This document shows, piece after piece, positions 26,861-51,860 of a DNA stretch of 64,000 bases. Numbering within the stretch: position 1 is the first letter of the stretch; each line of letters begins with the position of its first letter. The position numbers and the translations under genes are program-made. The DNA comes from Apoda limacodes (lineage: Eukaryota > Arthropoda > Insecta > Lepidoptera > Limacodidae), in the NCBI GenBank assembly GCA_946406115.1, contig OX291544.1, positions 26,801,521 to 26,865,520 of the forward strand. Reading direction: 5' to 3'. The notes beneath the pieces were generated by a model. It was not told where the DNA came from, did no database searches, and saw only the letters and a list, made by a program, of their open reading frames with translations.

Positions 26861-27991
26861 ATTACTGCTTCACCGGGCTTTTTAGGCGAGTCTCTGAAGG
26901 AGCCTCAGCCCGTATAGCCCCCAAAGCTCAAGGGCTCCCCGCGGGGGGAGTCTCGGCTTGGGTTGTCGTTCTCGGGGGCGCCCTTCGATCAGCATGAGCC
27001 TCGAACCCAAAGGTGAGTCACCGCCAGGAGGGAAGTTCCCCGTTACGCGGGTGCGGTTGCGATTGAGTGGGGGCGAGATACCTCGTGTACCCTTGCGGGA
27101 GCCGATGAACCCGGGGACGTCGGCGTCGTGTTTGGAGGGAGGCCCTATTCTGGGAGGTCGTAAAGACTAATCTCGCTATCCGGACAGCCAGATCGTTATC
27201 TGGGGCCGTTAGTACGTGCCGAGGCCGCCTAACGATAGTTCCGTAGCACTGCGGGGCGCTTGGCCACACTTAGGTATTCTTGTTCCTCGCCAGCAATAGT
27301 GGGGAGTCACTAGGTACTCACCAACTACACCGCAGCCACTCCCGCCCGTCCGTCTCATCGCGTTTGCCTCCGCGTTCTCGCTCGCGCTCTCCCCGCTCGC
27401 GCTCTCTATGCCGCGTCCCGCACTCCCGCGAACCGCGACTCGCTCGCCGCAATCTTCGGGCCACCGTGCCCGCTCGCAAAATCCGGTAGCAGATGTGGCC
27501 TCTTCTGGGTCTCTCGCTACCCCGTCGCCCCCTCCGACCCTCAGAGACCGCTGCCTTGTCCCCGGAAGCCGTAATGTCCGCTGAGTCGGCGTTGTCCTCT
27601 AATGAGGATGACGAAGGCTTCAAAGTGGTTGGCCTGGGGACAAAAAAGGGCAAGAAGCGGAAGAAGACCGCCAAGTCCAAAAGGCTTCGGCGGCATCCGC
27701 TCAGGAGCCTTCTCCTCCTCCCTCCGATTCTGAGGTTAAACGCCTCAAAGCGCCTAGCGCTTTCCCGTCCCCGTCCACCTCGGCGGCCAGGCCTGAGCCA
27801 GCCGCCATGGACACAACCCCCGCCGCCACCTCTTCGCAGGCCGACTGTCCCACTTCGGGACGGAAGGAAAAATCTCCGCCCCCTGTTGTCATCAAAGACA
27901 AACGGGCCTGGCCAAACATTGCTAACGCTGTGAAGGCCAAGCGTATCAACTATACGCATGCCCGCAATGATGCGCGGTATCAAAGTGCAGG
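26860..27991 (+). mobile_element. 5' part of a Jockey-like non-LTR retrotransposon (leader and start of ORF1)
   Basis: A sharply GC-rich block in AT-rich surroundings. A leader of about 400 bp (ATTACTGCTTCACCGGGC to the GGGAGCCGATGAACCCGGGG region) precedes the ORF1 remains. It is cut at 27991 by the Maverick terminal repeat. The ORF2 pieces of a Jockey-like element at 45935-46431 and 46632-46764 may belong to the same family, but are not contiguous with it. Confidence 0.6.
27280..27991 (+). pseudogene. Jockey-like ORF1 (gag-like) remains, frame-shifted and truncated
   Basis: A Ser/Arg- and Pro-rich low-complexity start gives way to SSNEDDEGFKVVGLGTKKGK, KKRKKTAKSK, then in another frame SEVKRLKAPSAFPSPS, KEKSPPPVVIKDKRAWPNIA and NAVKAKRINYTHARNDA. 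This Pro-rich plus W-P-x-I pattern precedes the zinc knuckles in Jockey-clade ORF1. One more frame slip occurs at the end (RGIKVQ is readable one base off). Zinc knuckles would follow but the Maverick interrupts. Confidence 0.6.
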
Positions 27992-28096
27992 AGTAGTATA
28001 ATATTGGGCACTCTAGACCACCTCCGTGTCATCAGGCTCACTCCGTTCGCCTGCACTCCGGTGGCTTAGCGTGCCCAATATTATGTTTTTGAGATC
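27992..28096 (+). repeat. left terminal inverted repeat, copy 1 (105 bp)
   Basis: AGTAGTATAATATTGGGCAC ... TTATGTTTTTGAGATC; complement of 45830-45934. Within it ATAATATTGGGCAC (27998-28011) is the exact complement of GTGCCCAATATTAT (28071-28084), and CCACC/GGTGG and CAGGC/GCCTG pair further inside, so each end can fold into a branched hairpin. Confidence 0.95.
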
Positions 28097-28132
28097 AGTC
28101 ATCGTTCGCCTTTTGAAACACGTTGTCCTTAA

Positions 28133-29861
28133 CACGATTACAGAGAGCCCGTGGTAAGATCACTCTGTGAACCGTGTATATCCTAAACCTTTCAGTTGGA
28201 AGACCCGTGGTAAGTTCTTCCTGGGGTGCCCGTGGTAAGATCAACCCCACCGAAAGGAATTCCTAACACGTTCAACTTGGAGCCCATGGTAAGATCACCT
28301 TATTGAACGCGATACCTAAAACACGATTACAGAGAGCCCGTGGTAAGATCACTCTGTGAACCGTGTATATCCTAAACCTTTCAGTTGGAAGACCCGTGGT
28401 AAGTTCTTCCTGGGGTGCCCGTGGTAAGATCAACCCCACCGAAAGGAATTCCTAACGCGTTCAACTTGGAGCCCATGGTAAGATCACCTTATTGAACGCG
28501 ATACCTAAAACACGATTACAGAGAGCCCGTGGTAAGATCACTCTGTGAACCGTGTATATCCTTAACCTTTCAGTTGGAAGACCCGTGGTAAGTTCTTCCT
28601 GGGGTGCCCGTGGTAAGATCAACCCCACCGAAAGGAATTCCTAACACGTTCCACTTGGAGCCTATGGTAAGATCACCTTATTGAACGCGACACCTAAAAC
28701 ACGATTACAGAGAGCCCGTGGTAAGATCACTCTGTGAACCGTGTATATCCTAAACCTTTCAGTTGGAAGACCCGTGGTAAGTTCTTCCTGGGGTGCCCGT
28801 GGTAAGATCAACCCCACCGAAAGGAATTCCTAACACGTTCGACTTGGAGCCCATGGTAAGATCACCTTATTGAACGCGATACCTAAAACACGATTACAGA
28901 GAGCCCGTGGTAAGATCACTCTGTGAACCGTGTATATCCTAAACCTTTCAGTTGGAAGACCCGTGGTAAGTTCTTCCTGGGGTGCCCGTGGTAAGATCAA
29001 CCCCACCGAAAGGAATTCCTAACACGTTCAACTTGGAGCCCATGGTAAGATCACCTTATTGAACGCGACACCTAAAACACGATTACAGAGAGCCCGTGGT
29101 AAGATCACTCTGTGAACCGTGTATGTCCTAAACCTTTCAGTTGGAAGACCCGTGGTAAGTTCTTCCTGGGGTGCCCGTGGTAAGATCAACCCCACCGAAA
29201 GGAATTCCTAACACGTTCAACTTGGAGCCCATGGTAAGATCACCTTATTGAACGCGATACCTAAAACACGATTACAGAGAGCCCGTGGTAAGATCACTCT
29301 GTGAACCGTGTATATCCTAAACCTTTCAGTTGGAAGACCCGTGGTAAGTTCTTCCTGGGGTGCCCGTGGTAAGATCAACCCCACCGAAAGGAATTCCTAA
29401 CACGTTCAACTTGGAGCCCATGGTAAGATCACCTTATTGAACGTGATACCTAAACACGATTACAGAGAGCCCGTGGTAAGATCACTCTGTAAACCGTGTA
29501 TATTCTAAACCTTTCAGTTGGAAGACCCGTGGTAAGTTCTTCCTGGGGTGCCCGTGGTAAGATCAACCCCACCGAAAGGAATTCCTAACACGTTCAACTT
29601 GGAGCCCATGGTAAGATCACCTTATTGAACGCGACACCTAAAACACGATTACAGAGAGCCCGTGGTAAGATCACTCTGTGAACCGTGTATATCCTAAACC
29701 TTTCAGTTGGAAGACCCGTGGTAAGTTCTTCCTGGGGAGCCCGTGGTAAGATCAACCCCGCTGAAAGGAATTCCTAACACAATCGCAATTGGTTGACAGA
29801 CCCATGGTAAGATTCCGCCCGGGGAGCCCGTGGTAAGATCACCCCACGCCAACCGCGATTG
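28133..29861. repeat. subterminal tandem array of 189-bp hairpin units, 9 units (copy 1)
   Basis: Units start with CACGATTACAGAG at 28133, 28322, 28511, 28700, 28889, 29078, 29267, 29455 and 29644; unit length 189 bp (one 188). Every unit carries four versions of CCCRTGGTAAG(A/T)TC, each placed between complementary arms: CACGATTACAGAG/CTCTGTGAACCGTG; GGAAGA/TCTTCC; TGGGGTG/ACCCCA (these two enclosed by CCTTTC/GAAAGG); and CGTTCAA/TTGAACG. The last unit is divergent (ATCGC...TTGGTTG / GCCAACCGCGAT enclosing GGGG/CCCC) yet keeps two motifs in loops. About 37 motif copies in all. Units are nearly identical with a few substitutions. Confidence 0.95.
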
Positions 29862-32709
29862 TTTAATGTTCCAAATTAGTGAACAGATCGAACGATCGAA
29901 TTCATAATAAATAAAAGAAAAAAATTAAAAAAAAAAAAAAAATCACCTTTACCTTTTGAAAAACCAAATACCTTTTACCATTTACCTTTTACCATTTTAC
30001 CATAGAAGAATTACCTGCAGGTGTATAAAAAATAAAACAATGTTGGAAATAAAACAATGTGGAAATATCTACAGCTCAATCAAAGTTCATTACTGCTTTG
30101 AGTGAACTATAGAGTTTTGGTAGGATAGGTTTTTTTTAATTTGAACAGGTTACAAAAGTAAATACTTTTCTTTATAGTGTAGTGAAGTCTGGTCTGGTAA
30201 GAAGCATAGTACCTGCGAACAATAAAATATATTAGCACTGACAAGGTTCTTTTACAGTTATTAAAAATATTGAAAACCAGCGAGTTACCTGAATGTCCCA
30301 TGTAGGTACTTGGGTCTTAAATACTTGAAAGCTGACAGTTCTTAAAGTCGCAGCACTGTCTTCTCTGTAAACAATTTAAAAAAATATAATTATTATAGTT
30401 TTACGGTGTTTTTCTATACAAATTTTATACCTTGAACACAGGTACCTACAGTTTTGACTAATAAAAAGGAAACTAGCAGTAAGATAACAGGGATTTTTAT
30501 TTTTAAGATGAAATAATAAATTAGATTAAGGCATTGAATCCGTACTAAGGAAGATCTAGTGCAGATCTAAAAAAAATATAAAAAAAAATAAACTGTTGCA
30601 TTAATTAAATATAAATAAAATCATGATAATTGCAACAGTGTTATAATACTGAGAGCTGAGCTGAGCAAAAACCATTGTGAAAACGTTAATTACATGTCTA
30701 ATAATTTTATCAGCATATTTTTTATTTTATCCTAATATAATCAGAATATTTCCAATGAGCAATAAAATGTTACATTAAAAAAATCTCTATTTACTTGACA
30801 AAATGAACAACTAAAAATTATATATTATTTATTTTTAATTTTACAATAAATAAATAAGTAACACACTTTACTTACAGTATATAAATAAGTAAGTACTGCT
30901 TGATCACTTTTCTTGATTTTGGTAATTGCACTTTCACTAATTAAAGTTTTGAGACGTGTTCACAGCGCTACAAGTTTCTATGAGAAATGAGTTATAATAA
31001 TTATTATAGAAATAATTCTCACGGTTTGCTTATACTCCGACCAATGAATCTTGAACACTTCGGAATTTAGAGCAATTCAATCGTGTTTAGTATACGTTTT
31101 AACACCAGTATCTTATTGTTTTGTAGTATAATATCTAGGTTATATTAATATATTCTCACATACTTACAAATATGAGTGATTAATTTAACTGAAAAAAAAA
31201 CAATTTGTTTTCACATTCATTGAGAAAATAAGTTTTATTATTTTTAAGCAAATTTTATATTATGCAAAATTTTAGATGATTTGTTCATAATAGCGAATTT
31301 AGGTTATTTGTCCCTACCACAGAAGCAAAGCCTTCGTTAGATAAAGGAGGCTTAGGCTATTGGCCACCGCACCGGCCGGCCGCAAATTGGTGGATTAATT
31401 TAAGTACATAAATATATTATAAATACATTTTAGTTAATATAGTTCTATGTGGGTTCGTAACCGATTTGTCTTTTTTATAATTTGGTATTTCATTAATGTA
31501 ATATTTTAAAGTATCATGTATAGTTCAGCGACAAATACATAAACAAAGAGCCTTGCAAGCATAAAATAGTATCACGAACATAATATGAGAAGTTCATCTA
31601 TTGCGAAATGTTACAGTCAAGTTAAAAAACATACGATAGTAAATATATCCGTATTGCTTATTTTTATATAAAGTTTTTGTAATCTTTGTTGTATAGCGAG
31701 TCATATAAGAAAAGTACTACTTAGTGTTTTTTTCCCTCTTTTTATGAAAAAAATCATACAACGTCTCAAAATTAAATTATTGAAGTTATAAGTACAATAA
31801 CTAACGAATCCAGTTTTCGAAAACATAAGTTTAAATCTAAGTTTTTGTTTATGATTTTTAAGTGTGGTATTTTGCCGAAATATGTGTTGAGAGGGGTGCA
31901 ATTCGCGAAGCATTAATTTTATTTGACAATTAGTATTTTATAATATATGAAGGAGTTAATAAAGGATAATTTTAATAAGAAATGTAACTTAGATTTTTAA
32001 CCATTTGGTCAAATGTCTACAGTGCGACATTTTCAACATTTTACCGCGACCTAATATCAATTTACTACACATCCTTTGACGCAAGGCGACAAAGAATACC
32101 TAAGCGTGATAATTGCAAAGTATGCAATATTATTGATTTAGGGTTCGATTGGGTTCAATTTAAAAAAATCAAACGGTACATTTTATCTAGTCATGAGCTG
32201 TTTGAGTAAAATTGAAAACTTCGTTATAGACGTTATTAACTTTAGACATATTTCAATTTTAAACAACTGAATAGTATAGAGAAGGTATAAAGTTATGTGT
32301 TAAGATGATTTTTAATGTTTGTCTATGTGTAATTACATCTGCAGGAATTATTTGTAATTATTACCTAGTACATGTCAAATTATTTCAAACCTCTAATGAT
32401 AAAAAATAGGAGTTTTAAAAGGTAGATATCGTAGTAATAAAAATTAGGTGTTGTTATGACTCGCTCTTGACCGGTTTTTCTATTTTTGCTGACGAATCTA
32501 TATTCAATAGCTTATAAGCTCACACAGGCTACAAGTAATTACATATTTTTTTGAAAATTTGTGCATTAAATACAGTTGCTTCCGGTGTTAAATCCAGTTA
32601 TTCTGATATTGAAAAATGTAAGTAAGTACCTACTTATAACAAAAAATTTTTTTTGTTTTTAAATGTTTTTTTCTTATAGTTGATTTTATTATTTCTATTT
32701 ATTTCACAG
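29862..32709. other. long AT-rich non-coding region of the Maverick left arm
   Basis: Contains a poly-A run (29924-29942), a short (ACCTTTTACCATTT)n stretch at 29945-30003, and a small GC-rich island at about 31330-31395 (CCACCGCACCGGCCGGCCGC). Only short chance frames occur. The 5' exon(s) of the spliced gene at 32710-33697 should lie in its right part; a frame open from about 32535 that reaches the donor at GTAAGTACC (about 32628) is a candidate but has no ATG. Confidence 0.5.
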
Positions 32710-33697
32710 GTCTGACTCAGAGTTCGAATCCAGCCAAGAAATCCTTGCGGTGGCGCCTACACCTCCGGTGTCTTCTAGAAAACTCTGCACATCCTCAATC
32801 GGTGCAAAAGCAGTGAAACCCAAAAACATCGCCTCATCCCGTAAGCGCCTTACATCGGATACGCTAAACGAAAAGACAAGGTACTTATATAGTTGTGTTT
32901 CTATTTTAAAAATCTTTTGCTAAACTTAATGTAAAATTTGAAATAGGTATACATATACTTTACCTTTTCTGTGGTGTTTGCTTTGTAGTAGCACGAGCGA
33001 TGATGTGACGTATGTGATGATTCATCATATCATAACGCGTGCAGGCAAATACATGTTTGATGATCGTATATAATTTGTATAATAGATTGTTATCAAAATA
33101 GATTATTTTTTTAAAATGTTTTTATTATTTGTTATATTAAATTGTTTTTATGATAGTACCTATTCATTACCGATTGATAGAATGTGACCCTTATTACGCA
33201 ACCATAAATAATGCTATTTTATTTTATTTCTTTTTGCACCACCAAGGTGGCAAACAAGCTTACGGTCCACCTAATCTTAAGTAGTTACTTCATGTCAATA
33301 AGAAGATAACTTTATTTGTTGTTTTGTTCCCAGTTCAAAAAAGAAGAACCGAAAAGACCTCTTCACAATTTTAAATTTTGAGGAAAAAGCATCGAGCAGC
33401 AAGAAGAGTGTTCACAGTACAACATCCTCTTTTACATCGCGCGTTTCAACAGGTCAGACTCGTCGCGTTGGGAACTTTCAAGGAGACTTCTTCATTGATT
33501 TGAAGATTTACAACACGGGTGACGTTCAGGACGCTCCACCAGAGGAACGGTACAAGAAAGCCCTCGCAGCGGTAAAGCTACAGTGTGAGAGCTCTTCCAA
33601 TGAATGGGGGGCTATACAGGAATTTCTCGCTATAGCCTTCAACTTGTTTAAGGATAGTGAGCCTACGCATTTTAATAATAAGTTAAAATTTACCTAA
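32710..33697 (+). CDS. spliced Maverick gene of unknown function (two 3' exons seen)
   Basis: Exon A is 32710-32880, entered through ATTTCACAG and left through AAG|GTACTT; exon B is 33334-33697, entered through TTTTGTTCCCAG. The join is phase 2 and gives one open frame of about 177 codons to TAA. The protein is Ser/Lys-rich (SSSKKSVHSTTSSFTSRVS) with a charged C-terminal part (DAPPEERYKKALAAVKLQCE, EWGAIQEFLAIAFNLF). Exon A begins SDSEFESSQEILAVAPTPP. The start is unresolved. Exon GC content is higher than that of neighbouring Maverick genes. No family is recognised. The intron carries a scrap of a non-LTR tail. Confidence 0.6.
33237..33290 (+). repeat. scrap of a lepidopteran LINE 3' tail inside the Maverick intron
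   Basis: CACCACCAAGGTGGCAAACA followed by AGCTTACGGTCCACCTAATC matches the tail of the non-LTR element at 22830-22875 (CCACTAAGGTGGCAAACAAG). Same position in copy 2 (52388). Confidence 0.75.
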
Positions 33698-33833
33698 AAA
33701 ATATATTAACAATGGATTTATCTACATTATTTTATTTTTGAACTCACGCATTATACATTAAATATTCATGAGGTTAATATAAGTATTTCATAACAACTTT
33801 CTGATATTTTGGTTTTCGTTAATTCATTAAAAA

Positions 33834-36800
33834 ATGCCTTTCTGTTCTGTTTGTAGCGTATCTGTCAATAATAAGTCATGGACTGGTCACGTAAGGAGCA
33901 ATACTCATAAAAAAAATGATAAAACTCAACGCCATAGCGATGGGGTTGAAATTATTAGCTCGGCGTTTCGTCGACGCATTATTTCCTATAGACTAGTGGC
34001 TTTTGAACCTATTCCAAATAATTTATCTATGTTTTTAAACTCTCTTCGTAGTAAAATAATGTTACTTTTGAGTGAAAACTTACAAAAACATACCTGTCTA
34101 AAGGTAAATTTGGAGTTATTTTCAATTTTTGTTTTGTTTAAAAATAACAAGCAAGAAATTAAGTCCTTCAGTACAAAAAACATACCAATTTATTATAATT
34201 ACGATTTTAATAAGTTTTTTTCAAAAGTTGTTAATACTTTAACAAAGAAAGTTGAAGAGTTTGAGCAACGTGAAAGCGGTTGGGCCTTCCTAAGTGCTTC
34301 ACATTTGGAGGTAAATGTAAACCGTTACCAACCGTTGCGGGGTGGGGAGGGGTCCACATTTATACAACTGCCGAGAGTCATAAAGAATAAAAAGGCTTGT
34401 CTTAACATTCAGAATAACGATGAGTTTTGTTTTTTATGGAGTGTTATGGCAAACCTTTACCCAGCAAAATATCATTCTGAAAGAGTAACATCTTATCCTC
34501 ATTTTCGTGATGTTTTGAACATAGATGGCATGTCTTTTCCCGTTACGTTTACAGATATCCACATTTTTGAAAAAAATAATCCACAGCTTAAATTCATAAT
34601 TTTTGGTTTGCAAAACAATAAGACCATAACGGGACCATTGTATAAGTCTGAAAATATAAGTAATAAAAAAATCATACATTTGTTGTTTTTTGAAAATAAT
34701 GGTAAATCGCATTACTGTCTCATTAAGGATTTGTCACGGCTTGTTCGTAAACAAATAACAAACCATCACGGGAAACTGTATTTTTGCGACACGTGTTTAG
34801 TATTTTTTAAAACACAAATCGAAGTTGATAATCACGTTTGTGGTGGAATAGTGACTTTATTACCGGAAAAGGGTTCAGTAATCAAATTCAAAAATTATGA
34901 CCGTAAACAAAATGTCCCCGTCGTAATTTACGCGGACATGGAAACTTTATTGAAGCCGTGCTATAAAGAACCATCAGGCACTTCGAATACAGAAACGTTA
35001 CAACATCATATTCCAGCAGCGTTTGCTTATCAAATTGTTTGTACAGCGGACCCGAACCATAATCGATATGTGTCTTACCGCGGCGTTGACTGTATTGAAA
35101 CATTTATCGATTATCTTTATAGAGACGCGCGTAAAATACACCAAATTCTATCTCAAAATGTTCCTATTATTTTTAATGAAAATGATGCAAAAGATTTTAA
35201 AAATGCTACCCTTTGCCATATTTGCCGGAATTTTTTATTTGGTGACAAAGTGAAAGATCATTGTCATATATCAGGCCGTTATCGTGGTGCAGCTCATAAC
35301 TATTGTAATTTACAATACAAAATTCCCAAATTTGTACCGATATTTTTCCACAATCTGGCAGGCTATGACAGCCATCTGTTTATCAAAAATCTAGGAGAAG
35401 CTCCAGGAGCGATAAAAATCATTCCTAAAACTAAAGAGAACTATATCTCATTTACTAAATTCATTCCAGTTTCCGATGAAGAATTCATTCAGCTACGATT
35501 TGTAGATTCTTATAAATTTTTAGGCACCAGTTTAGAAAAGTTGGCTAAAACTTTAAAAAAAGAAAATTTTATACATCTTCGTAGATGTTTTTTAAATCCA
35601 ACTCAATTCGATTTAGTTACACGTAAAGGAGTTTATCCTTACGAATATATGGATAAATGGGATCGTTACAATGAACAGAAACTTCCTAAAAAAGAATGTT
35701 TTTACAGTTCTCTTACTAATGAAACTATTTCGGATGAGGATTACGAACACGCGCAAACAGTTTGGCGCGCATTTGATATTTTAAATCTCGGTCAGTACAC
35801 TGATTTATATTTGCAAATTGATGTGCTTTTGCTGACGGATATTTTCGAAAATTTTAGGCAAACATGCAAACGTCACTATCTTCTCGATCCAGCATATTAC
35901 TTAACAGCAAGTAGCTTATCATGGGATAGCATGCTTTTTAAAACAGGTGTCGAGCTTGAACTCATTGGAGATTTAGAAATAATTAGAATGATTCAAGCCG
36001 GTATAAGGGGCGGTGTTTGTATGTGTTCGCACAGATATGCAGAAGCTAACAATAAACACGTTTTACACTATGATCCTTTGTTAACTGACTCATATATAGT
36101 CTACATAGATTGTAATAATCTTTATGGATACAGCATGTGCCAAGCTTTGCCTTTTTCAAACTTTCGTTTTTTGAGTCAATCTGAAATAGTTAATTTTAAT
36201 GTTAACAATGTATCAAATGATGCTGATTACGGGTTTATACTCGAAGTCGATTTGATTTATCCTAAAGAATTGCATGGAAAACATAACGAGTTACCGTTTT
36301 GTCCAGAAAAAAGTATTCCTCCCGGAGGGAAAACTTCTAAACTTATTCCGAATTTATTCGACAAATATTTTTACGTAATTCACTATGTGAATTTAAAAAC
36401 TTGTATAAAACACGGTTTAATCCTTGAAAAAGTGCATCGCGTTATTACGTTTAGGCAGAGCTCTTACCTAAAACAATACATCGATCTAAATACAAGTTTA
36501 AGACAAAACGCAAAATCGGAATTTGAACAAGACTTTTTTAAATTGTTAAACAATAGTATCTTTGGTAAAACATTAGAAAACAACGAACGAAGGGTTAAGG
36601 TACAGTTAGTGAATCAATGGTCTGACACCCAAAATAAAACTAAAAAGAAAAATAGCGCAGACAAATTAATAGCAAGTCCGAGTTTTCATAGTGTTTCAGT
36701 CTTTACTGAAAATTTGGTTGCTATACAAACCAAGCCTGAACAGATAATTTTAGATAAGCCTCTATACATAGGGTTTACAGTGCTCGAGCTATCTAAAGCT

Positions 36801-37349
36801 CACATGTACGATTTTCATTACTCTATTGTTCAACCATTTTATGGTAAACGCGTACGCATGTGCTATACTGATACAGACAGTTTCATATATCACATAAAAA
36901 CACATGACTTTTATAAAGACCTAAAAAAACATTTTATACAGTACTTCGATACTAGCAATTATGGTTTACAAAATGACTATGACTTGCCACTAATAAATAA
37001 AAAAGTTCCAGGTCTTTTTAAAGACGAAATGGGAGGGGATATTATTACAAAGTTTGTAGGCCTACGTTCTAAATTGTACTGCGTTAAAACTGCAAACAGT
37101 ATTATTAAAAAAGCTAAAGGTGTAAAGACATGTGTTGTACGAAATTTAAGTTTTTCAAATTATAGAAAAACATTGTTTAAAGGCGGTGTCATAAAAAAAA
37201 AAAATATTTTATTCAAATCTATAAAACACGAAGTGTTCACGCGTAGCGTTAAAAAGATTGCCTTGTCAAGCAACGACGATAAGCGATTGGTGTCAGGAGA
37301 TAAAGTGTCTACGACAGCATGGGGTCACGTGTCTATTTTAGGGGTATAA
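33834..37349 (+). CDS. polB: protein-primed DNA polymerase B (pPolB) of the Maverick
   Basis: Copies the element's linear DNA, by analogy with adenovirus and phi29 polymerases primed by a terminal protein. At 1171 residues it has the usual Maverick size. A C2H2-like finger lies at residues 4-25 and another near 320-338. The 3'-5' exonuclease shows Exo I YADMET (near 366), Exo II HNLAGYDS (near 506) and Exo III YLQIDVLLLTD (near 660). Between Exo I and II sits CHICRNF...DHCHISGRYRGAAHNYCN (about 460-490), an endonuclease VII/HNH-like zinc site. Polymerase motifs are A DCNNLYGYS (near 758), B KLLNNSIFGKT (near 905), C CYTDTDS (near 1010) and KLY (near 1080). No separate terminal protein is obvious; in this family it may be the N-terminal part. 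No breaks. Confidence 0.95.
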   Translation: MPFCSVCSVSVNNKSWTGHVRSNTHKKNDKTQRHSDGVEIISSAFRRRIISYRLVAFEPIPNNLSMFLNSLRSKIMLLLSENLQKHTCLKVNLELFSIFVLFKNNKQEIKSFSTKNIPIYYNYDFNKFFSKVVNTLTKKVEEFEQRESGWAFLSASHLEVNVNRYQPLRGGEGSTFIQLPRVIKNKKACLNIQNNDEFCFLWSVMANLYPAKYHSERVTSYPHFRDVLNIDGMSFPVTFTDIHIFEKNNPQLKFIIFGLQNNKTITGPLYKSENISNKKIIHLLFFENNGKSHYCLIKDLSRLVRKQITNHHGKLYFCDTCLVFFKTQIEVDNHVCGGIVTLLPEKGSVIKFKNYDRKQNVPVVIYADMETLLKPCYKEPSGTSNTETLQHHIPAAFAYQIVCTADPNHNRYVSYRGVDCIETFIDYLYRDARKIHQILSQNVPIIFNENDAKDFKNATLCHICRNFLFGDKVKDHCHISGRYRGAAHNYCNLQYKIPKFVPIFFHNLAGYDSHLFIKNLGEAPGAIKIIPKTKENYISFTKFIPVSDEEFIQLRFVDSYKFLGTSLEKLAKTLKKENFIHLRRCFLNPTQFDLVTRKGVYPYEYMDKWDRYNEQKLPKKECFYSSLTNETISDEDYEHAQTVWRAFDILNLGQYTDLYLQIDVLLLTDIFENFRQTCKRHYLLDPAYYLTASSLSWDSMLFKTGVELELIGDLEIIRMIQAGIRGGVCMCSHRYAEANNKHVLHYDPLLTDSYIVYIDCNNLYGYSMCQALPFSNFRFLSQSEIVNFNVNNVSNDADYGFILEVDLIYPKELHGKHNELPFCPEKSIPPGGKTSKLIPNLFDKYFYVIHYVNLKTCIKHGLILEKVHRVITFRQSSYLKQYIDLNTSLRQNAKSEFEQDFFKLLNNSIFGKTLENNERRVKVQLVNQWSDTQNKTKKKNSADKLIASPSFHSVSVFTENLVAIQTKPEQIILDKPLYIGFTVLELSKAHMYDFHYSIVQPFYGKRVRMCYTDTDSFIYHIKTHDFYKDLKKHFIQYFDTSNYGLQNDYDLPLINKKVPGLFKDEMGGDIITKFVGLRSKLYCVKTANSIIKKAKGVKTCVVRNLSFSNYRKTLFKGGVIKKKNILFKSIKHEVFTRSVKKIALSSNDDKRLVSGDKVSTTAWGHVSILGV

Positions 37350-37852
37350 GTTACTTGTCAACCATATGTGTCTTAAAACATACATACGAATATAACGGTC
37401 TACAGTTAATAATTGCACTATGGGGCGACATCGATTTCAAACCAAAAGTCAAGATATTGCAAAGTGATTGTGAAATAGTAACATTAACCTCAAGTGATTT
37501 TGGTTATATTAAAAATATTCTAAATTTAAATACTTGTGATATGCATGAATTATATGTCTTTTTATACTGTGTAAAACTGTGTGATTACGAAATTGTTACA
37601 AAAGTACTAGGTATCTTAAAAAAATTTTACCGTTGTATGTGTATATATTTCGATTATCTTTTAAGTTTAGATGAATATGTGTCTGAATGCATTACACGTT
37701 TTAAAAAAATTATTAAACAAGACACACTTTCTTCCGTTGAAAACATTTACTATAGACTATTGTGTAATTGTAATACCGAGTCTTTGGTTGAAAATGAAAT
37801 AGTGACTATTGGGTTTGATTATTTTTTACCTTTTGTAATTTTCAACTTATAA
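37319..37852 (+). CDS. hypothetical protein overlapping the end of polB (177 aa)
   Basis: An ATG at 37319 lies 31 bases inside the 3' end of polB in another frame, and the frame runs to 37852, followed by AATAAA at 37900. The product is Cys- and Tyr-rich, with mostly helical-looking hydrophobic segments (HELYVFLYCVKLCDYEIVTK, CMCIYFDYLLSLDEYVSECI), and has no motif I recognise. Both copies encode the same product. It may be expressed from the polB transcript or have an additional upstream exon. Confidence 0.6.
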   Translation: MGSRVYFRGISYLSTICVLKHTYEYNGLQLIIALWGDIDFKPKVKILQSDCEIVTLTSSDFGYIKNILNLNTCDMHELYVFLYCVKLCDYEIVTKVLGILKKFYRCMCIYFDYLLSLDEYVSECITRFKKIIKQDTLSSVENIYYRLLCNCNTESLVENEIVTIGFDYFLPFVIFNL

Positions 37853-38029
37853 ATATTTTAAAAAATTGTTTAATAATTGTATAGTGCATGATTATTGAAA
37901 ATAAATTTATGTATGTAGAATTTGTATTTTTTATTTATTTTCTACCACTATACTTGGAAGATACCATTATACCTGCTATTAGTCTATCTAGAGCAACAAT
38001 TAACCAGTCCAGACATGATTTTTAATGAC

Positions 38030-38181
38030 GCATGCGTATTACGTTGCATTGTTGCATAGCGTGCGAGCGCGGGGAGCGGGGCGCGTTGTCTAGTATATGG
38101 TGCATGGCATATGCCTAGCTCTTAGCTCATTACGTTCTTCGCGTTAAGTGCGGTCACATCTATATCAGTATACACGAAATC
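38030..38181 (+). promoter_or_regulatory. GC-rich promoter-like segment before the spliced 131-aa gene
   Basis: GCGTGCGAGCGCGGGGAGCG and GGGCGCG stand out from the AT-rich element. Further down ATATCAGTATAC contains an arthropod initiator TCAGT about 15 bases before the ATG at 38182. TATA-like TAGTATATGG lies about 80 bases upstream of it. Confidence 0.4.
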
Positions 38182-38662
38182 ATGTCTGAAGTTCGATCAA
38201 TGCAAGCTAGTATGGTGGCAGTTATGGACTCAAAAATACCAAAGTATTTAGTAAAAGTTGAAATTTTTGATGCAGTTGATAAAGCAAATGATGTGCATTT
38301 ACGATCACGTATTAAAACTCAATATATAGTTTATGATGAAAAGGATAATATTCTATACAAGGCATCCCAATTAATATACCAAATAACGTCTGAGCTAGGA
38401 GAGCGCAACGAAAATCTGTGCAACGTAAATCTTTTCAGGTATGTAGATATGTTTTTATATAATAGCTAATTTTTACTTCTCCTTACTTTTAAGTCTTTGA
38501 AATGGTATTATTTCCTTTTACAGAAGCAATACACTAATCATTTTTTGTTTTGTTACAGATAATAACGCTTTGTTTCATGTCAAGACAAGATACGGATGTC
38601 AAAATAGCCTGCGCTGCGACAATATCTTAGTAGATAAATATGAAATCTATTTAGAAATATAA
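38182..38662 (+). CDS. spliced Maverick gene of unknown function (131 aa)
   Basis: Exon 1 38182-38438 ends CTTTTCAG|GTATGT; exon 2 38524-38662 is entered through TTTCCTTTTACAG. The join is phase 2 and lengthens the protein by about 45 residues to a TAA, followed by AATAAA at 38678. Unspliced, the frame would stop after 95 codons. The N-terminal half is charged (AVDKANDVHLRSRIKTQYIV) and a Cys pair appears in exon 2 (GCQNSLRCDN). A second acceptor-like TTTTGTTACAG (38559) would put stops in frame. Family unknown; the high-GC promoter and the intron suggest a captured host-type gene. Confidence 0.6.
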
Positions 38663-38677
38663 AATGTACAAATTGAA

Positions 38678-38886
38678 AATAAAAAAGTATATTTAAAAAA
38701 AGTGTATTATTTAAAGTCTCACTCACATTTCATTATTAGCATTTTACTCTGTAGATGTCCACCCCATAGTTAAAATTATCCTTTCACATTACCTTTCTTG
38801 TATCCGTTTCATAAATATAATAAAATTATAAGTGATGGATTGGTTAAGGTTCAAAAATAATACAAAAAAATATTAAACTATTTATT
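38678..38886. terminator. facing poly-A signals between the two gene blocks
   Basis: AATAAA at 38678-38683 serves the rightward genes and TTTATT at 38881-38886 (AATAAA on the minus strand) serves the leftward block, with about 200 bases without coding content between them. Confidence 0.65.
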
Positions 38887-38909
38887 TATTTAGTAAACAA
38901 GTAAAAAAT

Positions 38910-39386
38910 TTACACATTTTCAAAGTACCATTTCTTAATACATAAAACATTTTTTAAAGCGCATTCTTTTTTATGATTTTTACAACTTGTTACAGAACCT
39001 ACACTACTATATTTATCGTACAGATTACCAAAGCTAGGACAACCTATCTCCTCAATATTTGAAGACTGACACTTTTCACAGAGTAAATTAATCCATTTTT
39101 TCTTTTCGTCTCCTTTCGTTATGACTTCCTTATTTTTCAAAAATGATTTCATTAGTCTTAAGAATTTATAATAATCTATGTAACCTTCGCTCCAATAGAT
39201 ACCTCTGTTTCGTTCAATCCATGATACTGTTTTCTTTTCTTCATCAGTTAATTTCGTGTACGGGTAAGGAGGCTTAATCAAAAATACCCGAGTGTTGTTA
39301 TATTTGTCAGAAATTGCAAATTCTTTTATGATAAAATCATTTTTGTAATTTTTAAATCCTTGAACATCGACAAAATAAGAATTCAT
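38910..39386 (-). CDS. conserved Maverick-associated protein (158 aa), function unknown
   Basis: Begins MNSYFVDVQGFKNYKNDFIIKEFAI, a strand-Asp-strand pattern recalling the first exonuclease motif of DnaQ/RNase H-like folds, then FLIKPPYPY and a C-terminal Cys/His cluster (CEKCQSSNIEEIGCPSFGNL, SCKNHKKECA, IKKWYF). I recall similar small proteins beside capsid genes in insect elements, but the function is not established here. Its start overlaps the stop of the major capsid gene by 4 bases (ATGA), so it is the last gene of the leftward block. Confidence 0.65.
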   Translation of the reverse strand: MNSYFVDVQGFKNYKNDFIIKEFAISDKYNNTRVFLIKPPYPYTKLTDEEKKTVSWIERNRGIYWSEGYIDYYKFLRLMKSFLKNKEVITKGDEKKKWINLLCEKCQSSNIEEIGCPSFGNLYDKYSSVGSVTSCKNHKKECALKNVLCIKKWYFENV

Positions 39387-40594
39387 GATATTTTACGAAC
39401 GATGTTACTTAAAGGTTTATATTCAACTATACAATCGTTTAGTATTAAACAGTAAGCAGATGTCTGATCAGGAATTTCTACATCACTTTCTAACTCTAAT
39501 CGAATGTTTACTACAGGCCCACTCTTTAGTGATTCTGGCTGACGAGCACAATCAATGACAAATAGCGGCGCTTTTTCTTTAAATTCTTTCGTGCTTAGCA
39601 ACGGTTCAGCTCTACGACCATAATAAGACTGTTGAAACTTAACGTATTGTTCATATATTAAAACAAATCTATCTTCAGAAAAGTTTGCATTTAGACATTC
39701 ATAAGGAAAATATGTTGAATTCAGAAAAACTTTAACATCACGTAAATTACAATGATCAAAGTGCGACATATCTTTCAAAGCATCATTTTTTCTACCAGTT
39801 TGCAAGCCTACAATAACATATCTAGGTTTTTCTATTTGAGATGAAGTTTTGATGGTCCAGGTATGCTTGGTGGTTTTAGCTAACGTATTTTCATATAGGT
39901 CCCAATTTCTAAACGTTAATTGAATGGTGCGATCCTTTTCTAATAGTTTAAGAAAATTTATTCGTTCTCGGTCGGAGACCTTAATATGCGGAACACGCCA
40001 GATTATTTTATGTATTTCAATATCGTCTATAACTTCTCCAGTATTTAATTTGACCGCGTTTAGATTTGTGTTACTGCGCAACATGACAAGTTCATGTTTA
40101 CAATTAATTACAACTTTCTTGTAATCCTCAGCAAAACCTAAAATATTGCTCAACGGTATAGATGCTGAAAATCTTCCACCATGCATATTTTTTGTACCAT
40201 CAATGTCCCAACCCCAAGCTTTTGAAATTTTTGATTCAGTTTCATTCATTGATAATAAACTTTTCATTGTTGTGGTAACGCCAGCATTTTTCACTTTATC
40301 AATTTCGACTCCATTTAATTCATATCGAATATCTTGAAATAAATATAGAAGGGGATTGTTTGTAAATTGAACACTAGATACTTTTTCTTTTGTATCTCTT
40401 TTTATTACATTTACTATTCCTTCTAAGTACAAGGTACTTGCGGAGGGCAATATGTATACATCTTGCTGATTAATCGGAATTCTAATTTCATCGTTTTTGT
40501 TAAAACTTGTGACATAAGGTTTATACGAATGAGTTTCGATAGCCTCGATAGAATTATCGTGAACAGGAGGATTGATAATGTTTAAAATACTCAT
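39383..40594 (-). CDS. major capsid protein, double jelly-roll type (403 aa)
   Basis: Forms the hexon-like trimers of the particle. Recognised from the conserved stretch pattern of Maverick/adintovirus capsid proteins: IRIPINQQDVYILPSASTLY near residue 38, LFQDIRYELNGVEIDKVKN near 85, PRYVIVGLQTGR near 258, HFDHCNLRDVKVFLNSTYFP near 277, and FQQSYYGR near 321. Alternating hydrophobic strands throughout fit a beta-rich fold. The start is fixed by the ATGA overlap with the 47-aa gene upstream; the end overlaps the 158-aa gene. No transmembrane segment, no break. Confidence 0.85.
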   Translation of the reverse strand: MSILNIINPPVHDNSIEAIETHSYKPYVTSFNKNDEIRIPINQQDVYILPSASTLYLEGIVNVIKRDTKEKVSSVQFTNNPLLYLFQDIRYELNGVEIDKVKNAGVTTTMKSLLSMNETESKISKAWGWDIDGTKNMHGGRFSASIPLSNILGFAEDYKKVVINCKHELVMLRSNTNLNAVKLNTGEVIDDIEIHKIIWRVPHIKVSDRERINFLKLLEKDRTIQLTFRNWDLYENTLAKTTKHTWTIKTSSQIEKPRYVIVGLQTGRKNDALKDMSHFDHCNLRDVKVFLNSTYFPYECLNANFSEDRFVLIYEQYVKFQQSYYGRRAEPLLSTKEFKEKAPLFVIDCARQPESLKSGPVVNIRLELESDVEIPDQTSAYCLILNDCIVEYKPLSNIVRKIS

Positions 40595-40734
40595 TTTAAT
40601 AGGCCAACTAATTTTAAAAAGTTTATGTTTTCAACGCTTAATTTTTTTTTCTTGGTATGTGTTGTTTTACGAACACCACTATTATTACTACGCGTTTTAA
40701 CTGGACGTTGTTCGTTTTTATAGTAATCAATCAT
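40591..40734 (-). CDS. small basic protein (47 aa) between the two capsid genes
   Basis: On the minus strand an ATG at 40734 overlaps the stop of the minor capsid gene (ATGA) and its own TGA overlaps the start of the major capsid gene (ATGA again), so three genes are locked together by 4-base overlaps. The product starts MIDYYKNEQRPVKTRSNN, continues with a Lys-rich core (TTHTKKKK) and ends hydrophobic (NINFLKLVGLLK). Strong positive charge recalls small core or pX-like peptides of adenoviruses, but this is only analogy. The precise double overlap and identity in both copies support a real gene. Confidence 0.65.
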   Translation of the reverse strand: MIDYYKNEQRPVKTRSNNSGVRKTTHTKKKKLSVENINFLKLVGLLK

Positions 40735-41402
40735 TTCTTCTTGATATGTAAATACAACTGAATTTCTTCACCTCTTAAATTTATCAAGTTATTCTTTATA
40801 TCCAATATTCTTATGTCTATATTGTTAATGGTATTCCTATTTACAGGAAAATAAATAATGTTTTTTGGTATTTCTATTATTCTATAACCTGGAGGAACAT
40901 TCGGAGAAAACTCGTGGATGATGTGACTGGAAACTCCGTTTATGTATGAACCACTGACTATGTCACATTCGACTCTGATCACAGTTGTTGATAAAATGTT
41001 AACTGGAAAGCGGGACTCGTGCAATTTATTAGCTTTTAACAATACTTCACCAAAACCTAACAGGTTACCAAGTGATGACCGTTTTTCAAAATGAATATCT
41101 TTAGTACAAAATATTGTTGTCTTTAAAGTGTTATTGTTACAATATAATTTTAAGTCACATTTTTTTATTTTCGATTTTAAATAGTCACAAATATCTTGAA
41201 GTTCGTATGCACCTTCAGGGATTTCTATTAGTTCATTAGTCCCATAATGAAATTTATTATTTCTGCCATCAATATTCGGTAAGGAATTAAATGTAGATAA
41301 ATGTAGCAAGGCACACTCATATTCACCATCAAGTTGTAATGTAGGAAAATAGTTCGTCGTCAGAACAGAGGTGTTACCTGTTATAGACAGCGTGAAGGAC
41401 AT
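40731..41402 (-). CDS. minor capsid (penton-like) protein, single jelly-roll (223 aa)
   Basis: Expected to build the vertex capsomers. The N-terminus SFTLSITGNTSVLTTNYFP followed by LDGEYECALLHLSTFNSLPN, the IPEGAYELQDICDYLKSKI segment (common in Maverick penton proteins) and GNLLGFGEVLL are typical; the C-terminus ends in RGEEIQLYLHIKKK. Lies directly upstream of the 47-aa and major capsid genes with ATGA overlap. Size and strand-rich pattern fit the family. Confidence 0.8.
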   Translation of the reverse strand: MSFTLSITGNTSVLTTNYFPTLQLDGEYECALLHLSTFNSLPNIDGRNNKFHYGTNELIEIPEGAYELQDICDYLKSKIKKCDLKLYCNNNTLKTTIFCTKDIHFEKRSSLGNLLGFGEVLLKANKLHESRFPVNILSTTVIRVECDIVSGSYINGVSSHIIHEFSPNVPPGYRIIEIPKNIIYFPVNRNTINNIDIRILDIKNNLINLRGEEIQLYLHIKKK

Positions 41403-41439
41403 ATTGCTATTGGTAACAGCAGAACTAATCAGTCCGAAT

Positions 41440-41745: not shown

Positions 41746-41834
41746 ATATACTCCTCTAAACTCTGGTATTTTTGTTTTTTTGGCATGTTCTAAGATGTCA
41801 TAATTTGTAAGTGCTCTCTCAGGCAGCCTGGTTC

Positions 41835-42563: not shown

Positions 42564-42618
42564 TTCTGAAAAGAAAGTGATAAGTACCGAAAACTGTAGA
42601 TAGTATAAGTACGTTAAA

Positions 42619-45829: not shown

Positions 45830-45934
45830 GATCTCAAAAACATAATATTGGGCACGCTAAGCCACCGGAGTGCAGGCGAACGGAGTGAGCCTGATGACAC
45901 GGAGGTGGTCTAGAGTGCCCAATATTATACTACT
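45830..45934 (-). repeat. right terminal inverted repeat, copy 1 (105 bp)
   Basis: GATCTCAAAAACATAATATT ... CAATATTATACTACT is the inverse of 27992-28096. Identity stops abruptly inwards of GATCTC. No hairpin array follows on this side, so the two ends are asymmetric beyond the repeat. Confidence 0.95.
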
Positions 45935-46764: not shown

Positions 46765-46869
46765 AGTAGTATAATATTGGGCACTCTAGACCACCTCCGA
46801 GTCATCAGGCTCACTCCGTTCGCCTGCACTCCGGTGGCTTAGCGTGCCCAATATTATGTTTTTGAGATC
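46765..46869 (+). repeat. left terminal inverted repeat, copy 2
   Basis: Same 105-bp repeat as 27992-28096 with one visible substitution; the 14-bp inner palindrome arms (ATAATATTGGGCAC / GTGCCCAATATTAT) are intact. Confidence 0.95.
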
Positions 46870-46905
46870 AGTCATCGTTCGCCTTTTGAAACACGTTGTC
46901 CTTAA

Positions 46906-49012
46906 CACGATTACAGAGAGCCCGTGGTAAGATCACTCTGTGAACCGTGTATATCCTAAACCTTTCAGTTGGAAGACCCGTGGTAAGTTCTTCCTGGGGT
47001 GCCCGTGGTAAGATCAACCCCACCGAAAGGAATTCCTAACACGTTCAACTTGGAGCCCATGGTAAGATCACCTTATTGAACGCGATACCTAAAACACGAT
47101 TACAGAGAGCCCGTGGTAAGATCACTTTGTGAACCGTGTATATCCTAAACCTTTCAGTTGGAAGACCCGTGGTAAGTTCTTCCTGGGGTGCCCGTGGTAA
47201 GATCAACCCCACCGAAAGGAATTCCTAACGCGTTCAACTTGGAGCCCATGGTAAGATCACCTTATTGAACGCGATACCTAAAACACGATTACAGAGAGCC
47301 CGTGGTAAGATCACTCTGTGAACCGTGTATATCCTAAACCTTTCAGTTGGAAGACCCGTGGTAAGTTCTTCCTGGGGTGCCCGTGGTAAGATCAACCCCA
47401 CCGAAAGGAATTCCTAACACGTTCAACTTGGAGCCCATGGTAAGATCACCTTATTGAACGCGATACCTAAAACACGATTACAGAGAGCCCGTGGTAAGAT
47501 CACTCTGTGAACCGTGTATATCCTAAACCTTTCAGTTGGAAGACCCGTGGTAAGTTCTTCCTGGGGTGCCCGTGGTAAGATCAACCCCACCGAAAGGAAT
47601 TCCTAACGCGTTCAACTTGGAGCCCATGGTAAGATCACCTTATTGAACGCGATACCTAAAACACGATTACAGAGAGCCCGTGGTAAGATCACTCTGTGAA
47701 CCGTGTATATCCTTAACCTTTCAGTTGGAAGACCCGTGGTAAGTTCTTCCTGGGGTGCCCGTGGTAAGATCAACCCCACCGAAAGGAATTCCTAACACGT
47801 TCCACTTGGAGCCTATGGTAAGATCACCTTATTGAACGCGACACCTAAAACACGATTACAGAGAGCCCGTGGTAAGATCACTCTGTGAACCGTGTATATC
47901 CTAAACCTTTCAGTTGGAAGACCCGTGGTAAGTTCTTCCTGGGGTGCCCGTGGTAAGATCAACCCCACCGAAAGGAATTCCTAACACGTTCGACTTGGAG
48001 CCCATGGTAAGATCACCTTATTGAACGCGATACCTAAAACACGATTACAGAGAGCCCGTGGTAAGATCACTCTGTGAACCGTGTATATCCTAAACCTTTC
48101 AGTTGGAAGACCCGTGGTAAGTTCTTCCTGGGGTGCCCGTGGTAAGATCAACCCCACCGAAAGGAATTCCTAACACGTTCAACTTGGAGCCCATGGTAAG
48201 ATCACCTTATTGAACGCGACACCTAAAACACGATTACAGAGAGCCCGTGGTAAGATCACTCTGTGAACCGTGTATGTCCTAAACCTTTCAGTTGGAAGAC
48301 CCGTGGTAAGTTCTTCCTGGGGTGCCCGTGGTAAGATCAACCCCACCGAAAGGAATTCCTAACACGTTCAACTTGGAGCCCATGGTAAGATCACCTTATT
48401 GAACGCGATACCTAAAACACGATTACAGAGAGCCCGTGGTAAGATCACTCTGTGAACCGTGTATATCCTAAACCTTTCAGTTGGAAGACCCGTGGTAAGT
48501 TCTTCCTGGGGTGCCCGTGGTAAGATCAACCCCACCGAAAGGAATTCCTAACACGTTCAACTTGGAGCCCATGGTAAGATCACCTTATTGAACGTGATAC
48601 CTAAACACGATTACAGAGAGCCCGTGGTAAGATCACTCTGTAAACCGTGTATATTCTAAACCTTTCAGTTGGAAGACCCGTGGTAAGTTCTTCCTGGGGT
48701 GCCCGTGGTAAGATCAACCCCACCGAAAGGAATTCCTAACACGTTCAACTTGGAGCCCATGGTAAGATCACCTTATTGAACGCGACACCTAAAACACGAT
48801 TACAGAGAGCCCGTGGTAAGATCACTCTGTGAACCGTGTATATCCTAAACCTTTCAGTTGGAAGACCCGTGGTAAGTTCTTCCTGGGGAGCCCGTGGTAA
48901 GATCAACCCCGCTGAAAGGAATTCCTAACACAATCGCAATTGGTTGACAGACCCATGGTAAGATTCCGCCCGGGGAGCCCGTGGTAAGATCACCCCACGC
49001 CAACCGCGATTG
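46906..49012. repeat. subterminal array of 189-bp hairpin units, 11 units (copy 2)
   Basis: Unit starts at 46906, 47095, 47284, 47473, 47662, 47851, 48040, 48229, 48418, 48606 and 48795, then the same divergent last unit as in copy 1. Units 5-11 match copy 1 units 3-9, including the unit with CCTTAACC/TTCCACTTGG and the 188-bp unit, so the two additional units lie in the left part of the array. Confidence 0.95.
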
Positions 49013-51860
49013 TTTAATGTTCCAAATTAGTGAACAGATCGAACGATCGAATTCATAATAAATAAAAGAAAAAAATTAAAAAAAAAAAAAAAATCACCTT
49101 TACCTTTTGAAAAACCAAATACCTTTTACCATTTACCTTTTACCATTTTACCATAGAAGAATTACCTGCAGGTGTATAAAAAATAAAACAATGTTGGAAA
49201 TAAAACAATGTGGAAATATCTACAGCTCAATCAAAGTTCATTACTGCTTTGAGTGAACTATAGAGTTTTGGTAGGATAGGTTTTTTTTAATTTGAACAGG
49301 TTACAAAAGTAAATACTTTTCTTTATAGTGTAGTGAAGTCTGGTCTGGTAAGAAGCATAGTACCTGCGAACAATAAAATATATTAGCACTGACAAGGTTC
49401 TTTTACAGTTATTAAAAATATTGAAAACCAGCGAGTTACCTGAATGTCCCATGTAGGTACTTGGGTCTTAAATACTTGAAAGCTGACAGTTCTTAAAGTC
49501 GCAGCACTGTCTTCTCTGTAAACAATTTAAAAAAATATAATTATTATAGTTTTACGGTGTTTTTCTATACAAATTTTATACCTTGAACACAGGTACCTAC
49601 AGTTTTGACTAATAAAAAGGAAACTAGCAGTAAGATAACAGGGATTTTTATTTTTAAGATGAAATAATAAATTAGATTAAGGCATTGAATCCGTACTAAG
49701 GAAGATCTAGTGCAGATCTAAAAAAAATATAAAAAAAAATAAACTGTTGCATTAATTAAATATAAATAAAATCATGATAATTGCAACAGTGTTATAATAC
49801 TGAGAGCTGAGCTGAGCAAAAACCATTGTGAAAACGTTAATTACATGTCTAATAATTTTATCAGCATATTTTTTATTTTATCCTAATATAATCAGAATAT
49901 TTCCAATGAGCAATAAAATGTTACATTAAAAAAATCTCTATTTACTTGACAAAATGAACAACTAAAAATTATATATTATTTATTTTTAATTTTACAATAA
50001 ATAAATAAGTAACACACTTTACTTACAGTATATAAATAAGTAAGTACTGCTTGATCACTTTTCTTGATTTTGGTAATTGCACTTTCACTAATTAAAGTTT
50101 TGAGACGTGTTCACAGCGCTACAAGTTTCTATGAGAAATGAGTTATAATAATTATTATAGAAATAATTCTCACGGTTTGCTTATACTCCGACCAATGAAT
50201 CTTGAACACTTCGGAATTTAGAGCAATTCAATCGTGTTTAGTATACGTTTTAACACCAGTATCTTATTGTTTTGTAGTATAATATCTAGGTTATATTAAT
50301 ATATTCTCACATACTTACAAATATGAGTGATTAATTTAACTGAAAAAAAAACAATTTGTTTTCACATTCATTGAGAAAATAAGTTTTATTATTTTTAAGC
50401 AAATTTTATATTATGCAAAATTTTAGATGATTTGTTCATAATAGCGAATTTAGGTTATTTGTCCCTACCACAGAAGCAAAGCCTTCGTTAGATAAAGGAG
50501 GCTTAGGCTATTGGCCACCGCACCGGCCGGCCGCAAATTGGTGGATTAATTTAAGTACATAAATATATTATAAATACATTTTAGTTAATATAGTTCTATG
50601 TGGGTTCGTAACCGATTTGTCTTTTTTATAATTTGGTATTTCATTAATGTAATATTTTAAAGTATCATGTATAGTTCAGCGACAAATACATAAACAAAGA
50701 GCCTTGCAAGCATAAAATAGTATCACGAACATAATATGAGAAGTTCATCTATTGCGAAATGTTACAGTCAAGTTAAAAAACATACGATAGTAAATATATC
50801 CGTATTGCTTATTTTTATATAAAGTTTTTGTAATCTTTGTTGTATAGCGAGTCATATAAGAAAAGTACTACTTAGTGTTTTTTTCCCTCTTTTTATGAAA
50901 AAAATCATACAACGTCTCAAAATTAAATTATTGAAGTTATAAGTACAATAACTAACGAATCCAGTTTTCGAAAACATAAGTTTAAATCTAAGTTTTTGTT
51001 TATGATTTTTAAGTGTGGTATTTTGCCGAAATATGTGTTGAGAGGGGTGCAATTCGCGAAGCATTAATTTTATTTGACAATTAGTATTTTATAATATATG
51101 AAGGAGTTAATAAAGGATAATTTTAATAAGAAATGTAACTTAGATTTTTAACCATTTGGTCAAATGTCTACAGTGCGACATTTTCAACATTTTACCGCGA
51201 CCTAATATCAATTTACTACACATCCTTTGACGCAAGGCGACAAAGAATACCTAAGCGTGATAATTGCAAAGTATGCAATATTATTGATTTAGGGTTCGAT
51301 TGGGTTCAATTTAAAAAAATCAAACGGTACATTTTATCTAGTCATGAGCTGTTTGAGTAAAATTGAAAACTTCGTTATAGACGTTATTAACTTTAGACAT
51401 ATTTCAATTTTAAACAACTGAATAGTATAGAGAAGGTATAAAGTTATGTGTTAAGATGATTTTTAATGTTTGTCTATGTGTAATTACATCTGCAGGAATT
51501 ATTTGTAATTATTACCTAGTACATGTCAAATTATTTCAAACCTCTAATGATAAAAAATAGGAGTTTTAAAAGGTAGATATCGTAGTAATAAAAATTAGGT
51601 GTTGTTATGACTCGCTCTTGACCGGTTTTTCTATTTTTGCTGACGAATCTATATTCAATAGCTTATAAGCTCACACAGGCTACAAGTAATTACATATTTT
51701 TTTGAAAATTTGTGCATTAAATACAGTTGCTTCCGGTGTTAAATCCAGTTATTCTGATATTGAAAAATGTAAGTAAGTACCTACTTATAACAAAAAATTT
51801 TTTTTGTTTTTAAATGTTTTTTTCTTATAGTTGATTTTATTATTTCTATTTATTTCACAG
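49013..51860. other. AT-rich non-coding left arm, copy 2
   Basis: Counterpart of 29862-32709; nothing further recognised. Confidence 0.5.

Follow-up and report, generated by a model that had tools for sequence, protein, structure and literature searches.

One short motif presented on unlike stem-loops, acting through avidity, is a known arrangement in the dispersed packaging signals of single-stranded RNA viruses and in the roX and Xist repeats. In insect DNA viruses, the baculovirus hr elements are tandem palindromic repeats whose conserved sequence lies in the palindrome arms. Mavericks and adintoviruses are regarded as an ancient lineage of DNA viruses of eukaryotes, and Maverick terminal inverted repeats begin with AG. 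The prohead RNA (pRNA) of phi29 is the product of a single gene and has an Rfam family, and the phi29-type ATPase differs from the A32 type. According to the account in PMC11476376, the genome is linear and carries terminal proteins, this 174-nt RNA is encoded at its positions 147-320 bp, and transcription of the left region runs on to the left end. The adenovirus packaging domain, as presented in PMC5033970, lies at 220-400 bp, next to a 103-bp repeat; it is made up of seven repeats that are functionally redundant, and works within 600 bp of the terminal repeat. Our search of the literature on repeats, hairpins, packaging signals and non-coding RNA in Mavericks, Polintons and adintoviruses was limited and covered papers readable without subscription; it found no equivalent of the array described here and no account of how Maverick DNA is chosen for packaging. 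No equivalent array was found in passages of PMC8097293, PMC11071296 and PMC8363768, all on Mavericks or adintoviruses.

The locus analysed here shares something with each of these systems. As in baculovirus hr elements the repeats are tandem and palindromic, but in this array the constant part is the loop, and it is the arms that vary. The single-stranded RNA packaging signals and the roX and Xist repeats belong to RNA genomes or host long non-coding RNAs, whereas the array studied here is tandem and homogenised and lies at the end of a DNA element. The likeness to phi29 pRNA is one of place, since an array of 189-nt units begins 141 bp in from the tip of the 18-kb element; yet pRNA is a single gene, while here we find tandem units and an A32-type ATPase, and phi29 pRNA gave no match in an Rfam search of 27900-30400. 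The adenovirus packaging domain, in the description of PMC5033970, is like the array in being repeated, redundant, restricted to one end and placed next to the left terminal repeat, and array 1 (28131-29862) also sits between the left terminal repeat and the first recognised gene. Nevertheless, the adenovirus repeats are seven AT-rich TTTGN8CG elements, for which the passages on the domain in PMC5033970 mention no stems, whereas the two arrays hold 36 and 44 exact copies of an 11-nt loop core on differing stems. The bipartite TTTGN8CG occurs on neither strand of 28131-29862. With a constant loop on stems that were replaced independently, and a fixed distance from one terminus in the copies examined, the array is a concrete candidate for a cis element or a non-coding RNA.

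The window, i.e. the whole 64-kb stretch of DNA analysed, contains two elements arranged in direct tandem, of which element 1 extends from 27992 to 45934 (Table 1). Besides its capsid protein, element 1 encodes an rve integrase (PF00665, E 1.2e-10), an A32-type packaging ATPase (PF04665, E 1.3e-07) and a phospholipase A2-like protein (PF08398), and its terminal repeat begins with AG (5'-AGTAGT). A protein search gave 1572 relatives of the capsid protein; those named by organism among the best 120 are all lepidopteran, and the relatives include the hexon of Spodoptera moth adintovirus 1 (76%), so that a moth is the probable host. Judged by capsid, integrase, ATPase and terminal repeats, element 1 is an adintovirus-type Maverick. 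When checked for a 6-bp target site duplication, its flanks were found to differ (left TGCAGG, right CTACTC). The tips of the tandem elements lie 18,773 bp apart and the right flank of element 1, CTACTC, is also the left flank of element 2, as if the pair came from duplication or from a repeated target. Taken alone, the 105-bp terminal repeat also forms an imperfect palindrome (arms 27998-28022 and 28060-28084), reminiscent of parvovirus ends.

Table 1. Positions of the main features in the window.
Feature	Position	Strand	Description
Left terminal inverted repeat, element 1	27992..28096	+	105 bp, identical to reverse complement of right end
Hairpin array, element 1	28131..29862	.	nine H1 starts, 189-bp units, divergent last module
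H1, unit 1	28133..28176	.	arms 28133-28145 and 28163-28176 round motif; from folding of units 1 and 2
Two-hairpin module M, unit 1	28188..28257	.	outer stem CCTTTCAGT/ACCGAAAGG; from folding
H4, unit 1	28267..28311	.	CACGTTCAA/TTGAACGCG round CCCATGGTAAGATC; from folding
Divergent last module, array 1	29779..29862	.	14-nt outer arms with two A-C mismatches on + (G-U on -)
Large ORF, presumed polB	33834..37349	+	1171 aa, polymerase-like motifs
Major capsid protein, element 1	39383..40594	-	double jelly roll, PF21738, E 9.7e-107
Right terminal repeat, element 1	45830..45934	-	no motif copies beside it
Left terminal repeat, element 2	46765..46869	+	105 bp
Hairpin array, element 2	46904..49013	.	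eleven H1 starts and last module, 45 motif copies

Tandem Repeats Finder places 8.7 copies of a 189-bp period at 28131-29780 (98% matches), followed by a divergent module that reaches 29862, and a second array of 10.7 copies at 46904-48931, with its own divergent module to 49013. Every full unit holds four copies of a motif with the core CCC(A/G)TGGTAAG (one copy per array is off by one base), and each copy is flanked by mutually complementary arms whose sequence differs from copy to copy. At up to two mismatches, CCCRTGGTAAGWTC matches 82 times in the 64-kb window, 37 times in array 1 and 45 times in array 2, always on the plus strand and never outside the arrays, against an average of 0.74 in shuffled sequences. 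The count in array 1 is also 37 at up to one mismatch, in line with the roughly 37 loops of the original prediction. A count of the exact motif pattern over the genome as a whole gives 3492 occurrences (1631 forward and 1861 reverse), against 4 for the same pattern read backwards. No ORF of at least 150 aa covers either array, and a coding reading was rejected on this ground.

Repeat finding, motif counts and folding thus bear out a 189-bp unit with four motif copies between unlike complementary arms. The arms are largely as first described, with two corrections: the first stem, CACGATTACAGAG/CTCTGTGAACCGTG, is broken by an internal loop in the plus-strand fold, and the outer part of the fourth reads CACG/CGCG in most units, i.e. 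an A-C mismatch on the plus strand and G-U on the minus strand (152 of 174 units have A at unit position 137, and the same number have C at 179). Within module M, the inner hairpins GGAAGA/TCTTCC (28198-28221) and TGGGGT/ACCCCA (28222-28249) each carry the motif in the loop. The last module has inner arms GACAGA/TCCGCC (29795-29819) and CGGGG/CCCCA (29820-29846), with two motifs in loops in the minus-strand fold. Its motifs had been predicted to stay in loops; of the four motif copies in 29698-29870, folding places all four in hairpin loops on the minus strand but three on the plus strand.

To separate the stems from the motif, we held the motif fixed and unpaired and shuffled the flanks alone, with 500 shuffles and both RNA and DNA parameters. 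No shuffle of the unit reaches the true energy, on either strand or in either energy model; z is -6.73 (plus) and -6.82 (minus) with RNA parameters, and -7.04 (plus) and -8.13 (minus) with DNA parameters. All four motifs of the unit lie in hairpin loops, which is equalled by 1 (plus RNA), 5 (minus RNA), 1 (plus DNA) and 4 (minus DNA) of the 500 shuffles. For the last-module stretch the corresponding z values are -4.75, -6.22, -4.61 and -5.92, again with 0 of 500 shuffles each; its plus-strand loop count of 3 is equalled by 37 (RNA) and 24 (DNA) shuffles of 500 and its minus-strand count of 4 by 4 (RNA) and 2 (DNA). The observed hairpin display is more than chance. Plain dinucleotide shuffling of the whole unit gives much weaker values. 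With minus-strand RNA z is -2.70 (3 of 200 shuffles fold at least equally well) and with plus-strand DNA parameters -3.67 (0 of 200), but with plus-strand RNA it is only -0.61 (58 of 200), and the last-module stretch has -0.97 (28 of 200) on that same strand and model. We read these weak values as arising because the GC-rich motif by itself folds well in shuffles. The expectation that shuffled controls fold less well hence held with the motif fixed and failed under plain shuffling of plus-strand RNA.

Each array contains six hairpin types, four in the unit and two in the last module, with a common loop core and unlike arms. Comparing five arm pairs for each type, 27 of the 30 are Watson-Crick, with two to four pair types per position. 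The three others are all A-C on the plus strand and would be G-U in minus-strand RNA; read in this way, all 30 positions pair. When the 3' arms are redealt among the types the mean is 11.5, and a single permutation out of 720, the true one, reaches 27. These arms were picked because they pair, so the permutation shows partner specificity, while significance rests on the motif-fixed shuffles. Together the two tests uphold the claim of a constant loop on variable stems, with whole-stem replacement between paralogous modules, and selection has presumably kept the stems. Variants of H4 among the units go both ways: the stem gains from 137 A>G and from 179 C>T, and is weakened by 143 A>C and A>G.

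Free RNA folding favours the minus strand. In 189-nt windows of element 1, the nine array windows, which are repeats of one another and so dependent, have z of -1.46 to -3.40 on the minus strand and of -1.02 to +0.54 on the plus strand, against means of -0.09 (minus) and -0.03 (plus) in 85 non-array windows (sd 1.21). Low minus-strand values are not unique to the array, as the window at 31968 has -3.06 and the terminal-repeat window, from 27999, has the lowest values of element 1 on both strands (-4.01 plus, -5.03 minus). Folded whole, the array forms 484 pairs with 34 of 36 motifs in hairpin loops on the minus strand, and 400 pairs with 29 of 36 on the plus strand. With DNA parameters the array windows have z of -0.45 to -4.09 (plus) and -1.54 to -4.38 (minus), so that both strands beat shuffles and a DNA-level role is possible. 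A hand reading of the minus-fold helices had suggested A-C near-pairs on the plus strand as an argument from wobble pairing; a strand-neutral count in the stems gives 5 A-C to 3 G-T on that strand, with no clear strand bias, and we dropped the argument as proof. AATAAA occurs on the plus strand just right of the array (29906, 29910), which suits a plus transcript better, and is absent from the minus strand between the array and the tip. The Rfam search of 27900-30400, up to E 5, gave three matches, all far under the cut-offs; a microRNA model overlapping the last module on the minus strand (16.4 bits for a cut-off of 62) was taken as chance.

We examined 22 array copies, the two in the window and 20 fetched out of 55 asked for. 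In all 21 copies with a readable terminal repeat, the distance from the element tip to the start of the array is 141 bp. The divergent last module is present in all 22, and the number of unit starts ranges from 4 to 13 (nine in 16 of the 22). Scoring the best 40 candidates per search, we found at least 57 array places in the genome; in 53 of these 57 a family-A capsid gene lies 9.6-12.4 kb inward in matching orientation. The capsid search itself gave 103 scored matches out of 678 candidates, 80 of family A (96-100% identical) and 23 of a second family (72-73%). Motif scan, terminal repeats, capsid genes and copies agree with the original prediction that the array lies at the left end only, beside the terminal repeat, within a Maverick. 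The array belongs to the element. Of the 80 capsid genes listed for family A, 75 are 99-100% identical over their whole length, and such near-identity points to recent spread. The examined copies are also young by selection, because they were chosen as best matches to the right flank. They contain 197 unit starts, of which 174 complete units were used, once every array's final unit and a single short interval had been set aside; only 17 of the 174 are distinct, which leaves a covariation analysis across array copies without power. Among older family-A copies, one (L099) has no array and another (L100) has an array about 95% identical. Over the four units compared in L100, substitutions affect 13 of the 204 sites in motifs, 9 of the 304 in stems and 3 of the 208 elsewhere. 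In these small numbers the motif is more substituted than the stems.

How might such an array work? Our preferred reading, put forward tentatively, is that leftward transcription of the array may yield a non-coding RNA, and that the predicted hairpin loops of this RNA would bind many copies of one protein. Transcription would begin to the right of 29862 and proceed toward the left end. We infer that the minus-strand RNA would be the working molecule, and that the protein would read its loop, with the minus-strand core CUUACCAYGGG. Many molecules of this one protein would be held by the predicted loops of each RNA, so that copy number would give avidity rather than information, and this would explain the 4 to 13 units found. 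More broadly, a multivalent binding platform can fairly be inferred. The purpose is the least certain part. The motif of the older inserted copy bears no sign of constraint. For this reason a service to the host seems less likely than a part in virus assembly or in the sequestration of a host factor, and any function would belong to the mobile or viral phase. One might speculate that the array encodes an animal-virus counterpart of phi29 prohead RNA: a leftward run-off RNA from the end at which packaging of a linear, protein-primed DNA virus takes place, made of tandem 189-nt units whose constant loops would gather packaging or capsid machinery there. We consider this very unlikely.

Left ends of the second family were read in two loci (L096 and L098). 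They carry an array whose units are 180 bp long and contain a repeated segment of 40 nt; it is bracketed by a 28-nt inverted repeat, and its motif differs from that of family A; no constant-loop hairpin display was found in these two left ends. A single window of this array has z of -0.05 (plus) and +0.56 (minus), and a 711-nt stretch has -2.76 (plus) and -3.06 (minus), with 0 of 20 shuffles each, which we attribute to the 28-nt bracket repeat. Hence the search of other Maverick left ends, suggested with the original prediction, found the left-end array to be common to two families but the hairpin display in one so far. A stretch of a further locus (L097), at the expected distance from another capsid gene, had no array and was dropped. 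Capsid scans of viral contigs and of other genome contigs gave no relative, and the 17 stretches of viral contigs matching a 16-nt form of the motif, with one match each, were taken as chance.

The main competitor of the leftward RNA is a DNA-level packaging or assembly signal, i.e. a repeated recognition site near the left terminus whose palindromic arms might allow DNA hairpins or cruciforms. The array is indeed confined to one end, beside the left terminal repeat, its 4-13 units recall the redundancy of the seven adenovirus repeats at 220-400 bp next to a 103-bp repeat (PMC5033970), the element encodes an A32-type ATPase, and DNA folding beats shuffles on both strands. Yet the adenovirus repeats, as that account describes them, come without stems, TTTGN8CG is missing from both strands of array 1, and the array reaches 1870 bp from the tip whereas the adenovirus domain works up to 600 bp from its repeat. 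A DNA-level signal appears somewhat unlikely. The hairpins might also be unselected. Hairpins can perfect themselves by template switching during strand-displacement replication, and the array could have grown by unequal exchange. Loose copy number and homogenised units (17 distinct of 174) fit this account, as do a palindromic terminal repeat and the unrelated array at the same end in the second family, as if arrays come and go. But it leaves without explanation both the constant loop on replaced stems and the stem mismatches that remain, and we consider it unlikely.

The motif also resembles a splice donor, as originally noted, and the array might be a plus-strand series of 5' splice sites, each motif (G|GTAAG) recruiting U1 to a leader and thereby steering splicing or blocking early polyadenylation. 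The resemblance is real: GGTAAG occurs 37 times on the plus strand of array 1 and once more between 27998 and 33400, AATAAA follows the array, a spliced plus-strand gene lies downstream, and the second family has GGTAAGATC at the left edge of its array. However, that spliced gene uses its own donor (AT|GTAAGT at 32618), outside the array, and conservation exceeds the donor site, with CCC upstream and T downstream. Donors need no stems, and plus-strand RNA windows fold no better than shuffles. An array of splice donors is thus the least probable of these accounts, and highly improbable. The leftward non-coding RNA remains our tentative choice.

Some further observations concern the ends and the genes of these elements. 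In the second family (L096:3013-4192 and L098:912-1932), the left end is palindromic and accompanied by 60-bp repeats, and the array has GGTAAGATC at its left edge. This palindrome is similar to that of family A, with TATTGGGCA common to both, in a comparison covering the left ends. In element 1, no ORF of at least 150 aa occurs between 28096 and 33834. The first gene recognised after the array is the spliced one, on the plus strand at 32616-33697, upstream of polB; its start codon (M-SDSE, 32616-32710) is split by a predicted 92-bp intron (32618-32709). A later exon match lies at 33335-33697. The gene has relatives at 48-58% in Ostrinia, Leguminivora, Cydia and Aricia. No known domain was found in it, and the predicted structure of an exon has a mean pLDDT of 48.9, too low for a structure search. 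The large ORF at 33834-37349 presumably encodes polB, given polymerase-like motifs picked by eye; Pfam gave no polymerase match up to E 1. Endonuclease VII-type nucleases elsewhere cut branched DNA, and residues 458-493 of the same ORF have a weak endonuclease VII-like match (E 0.0032 in Pfam, under the cut-off, and 0.00085 in PHROGs).
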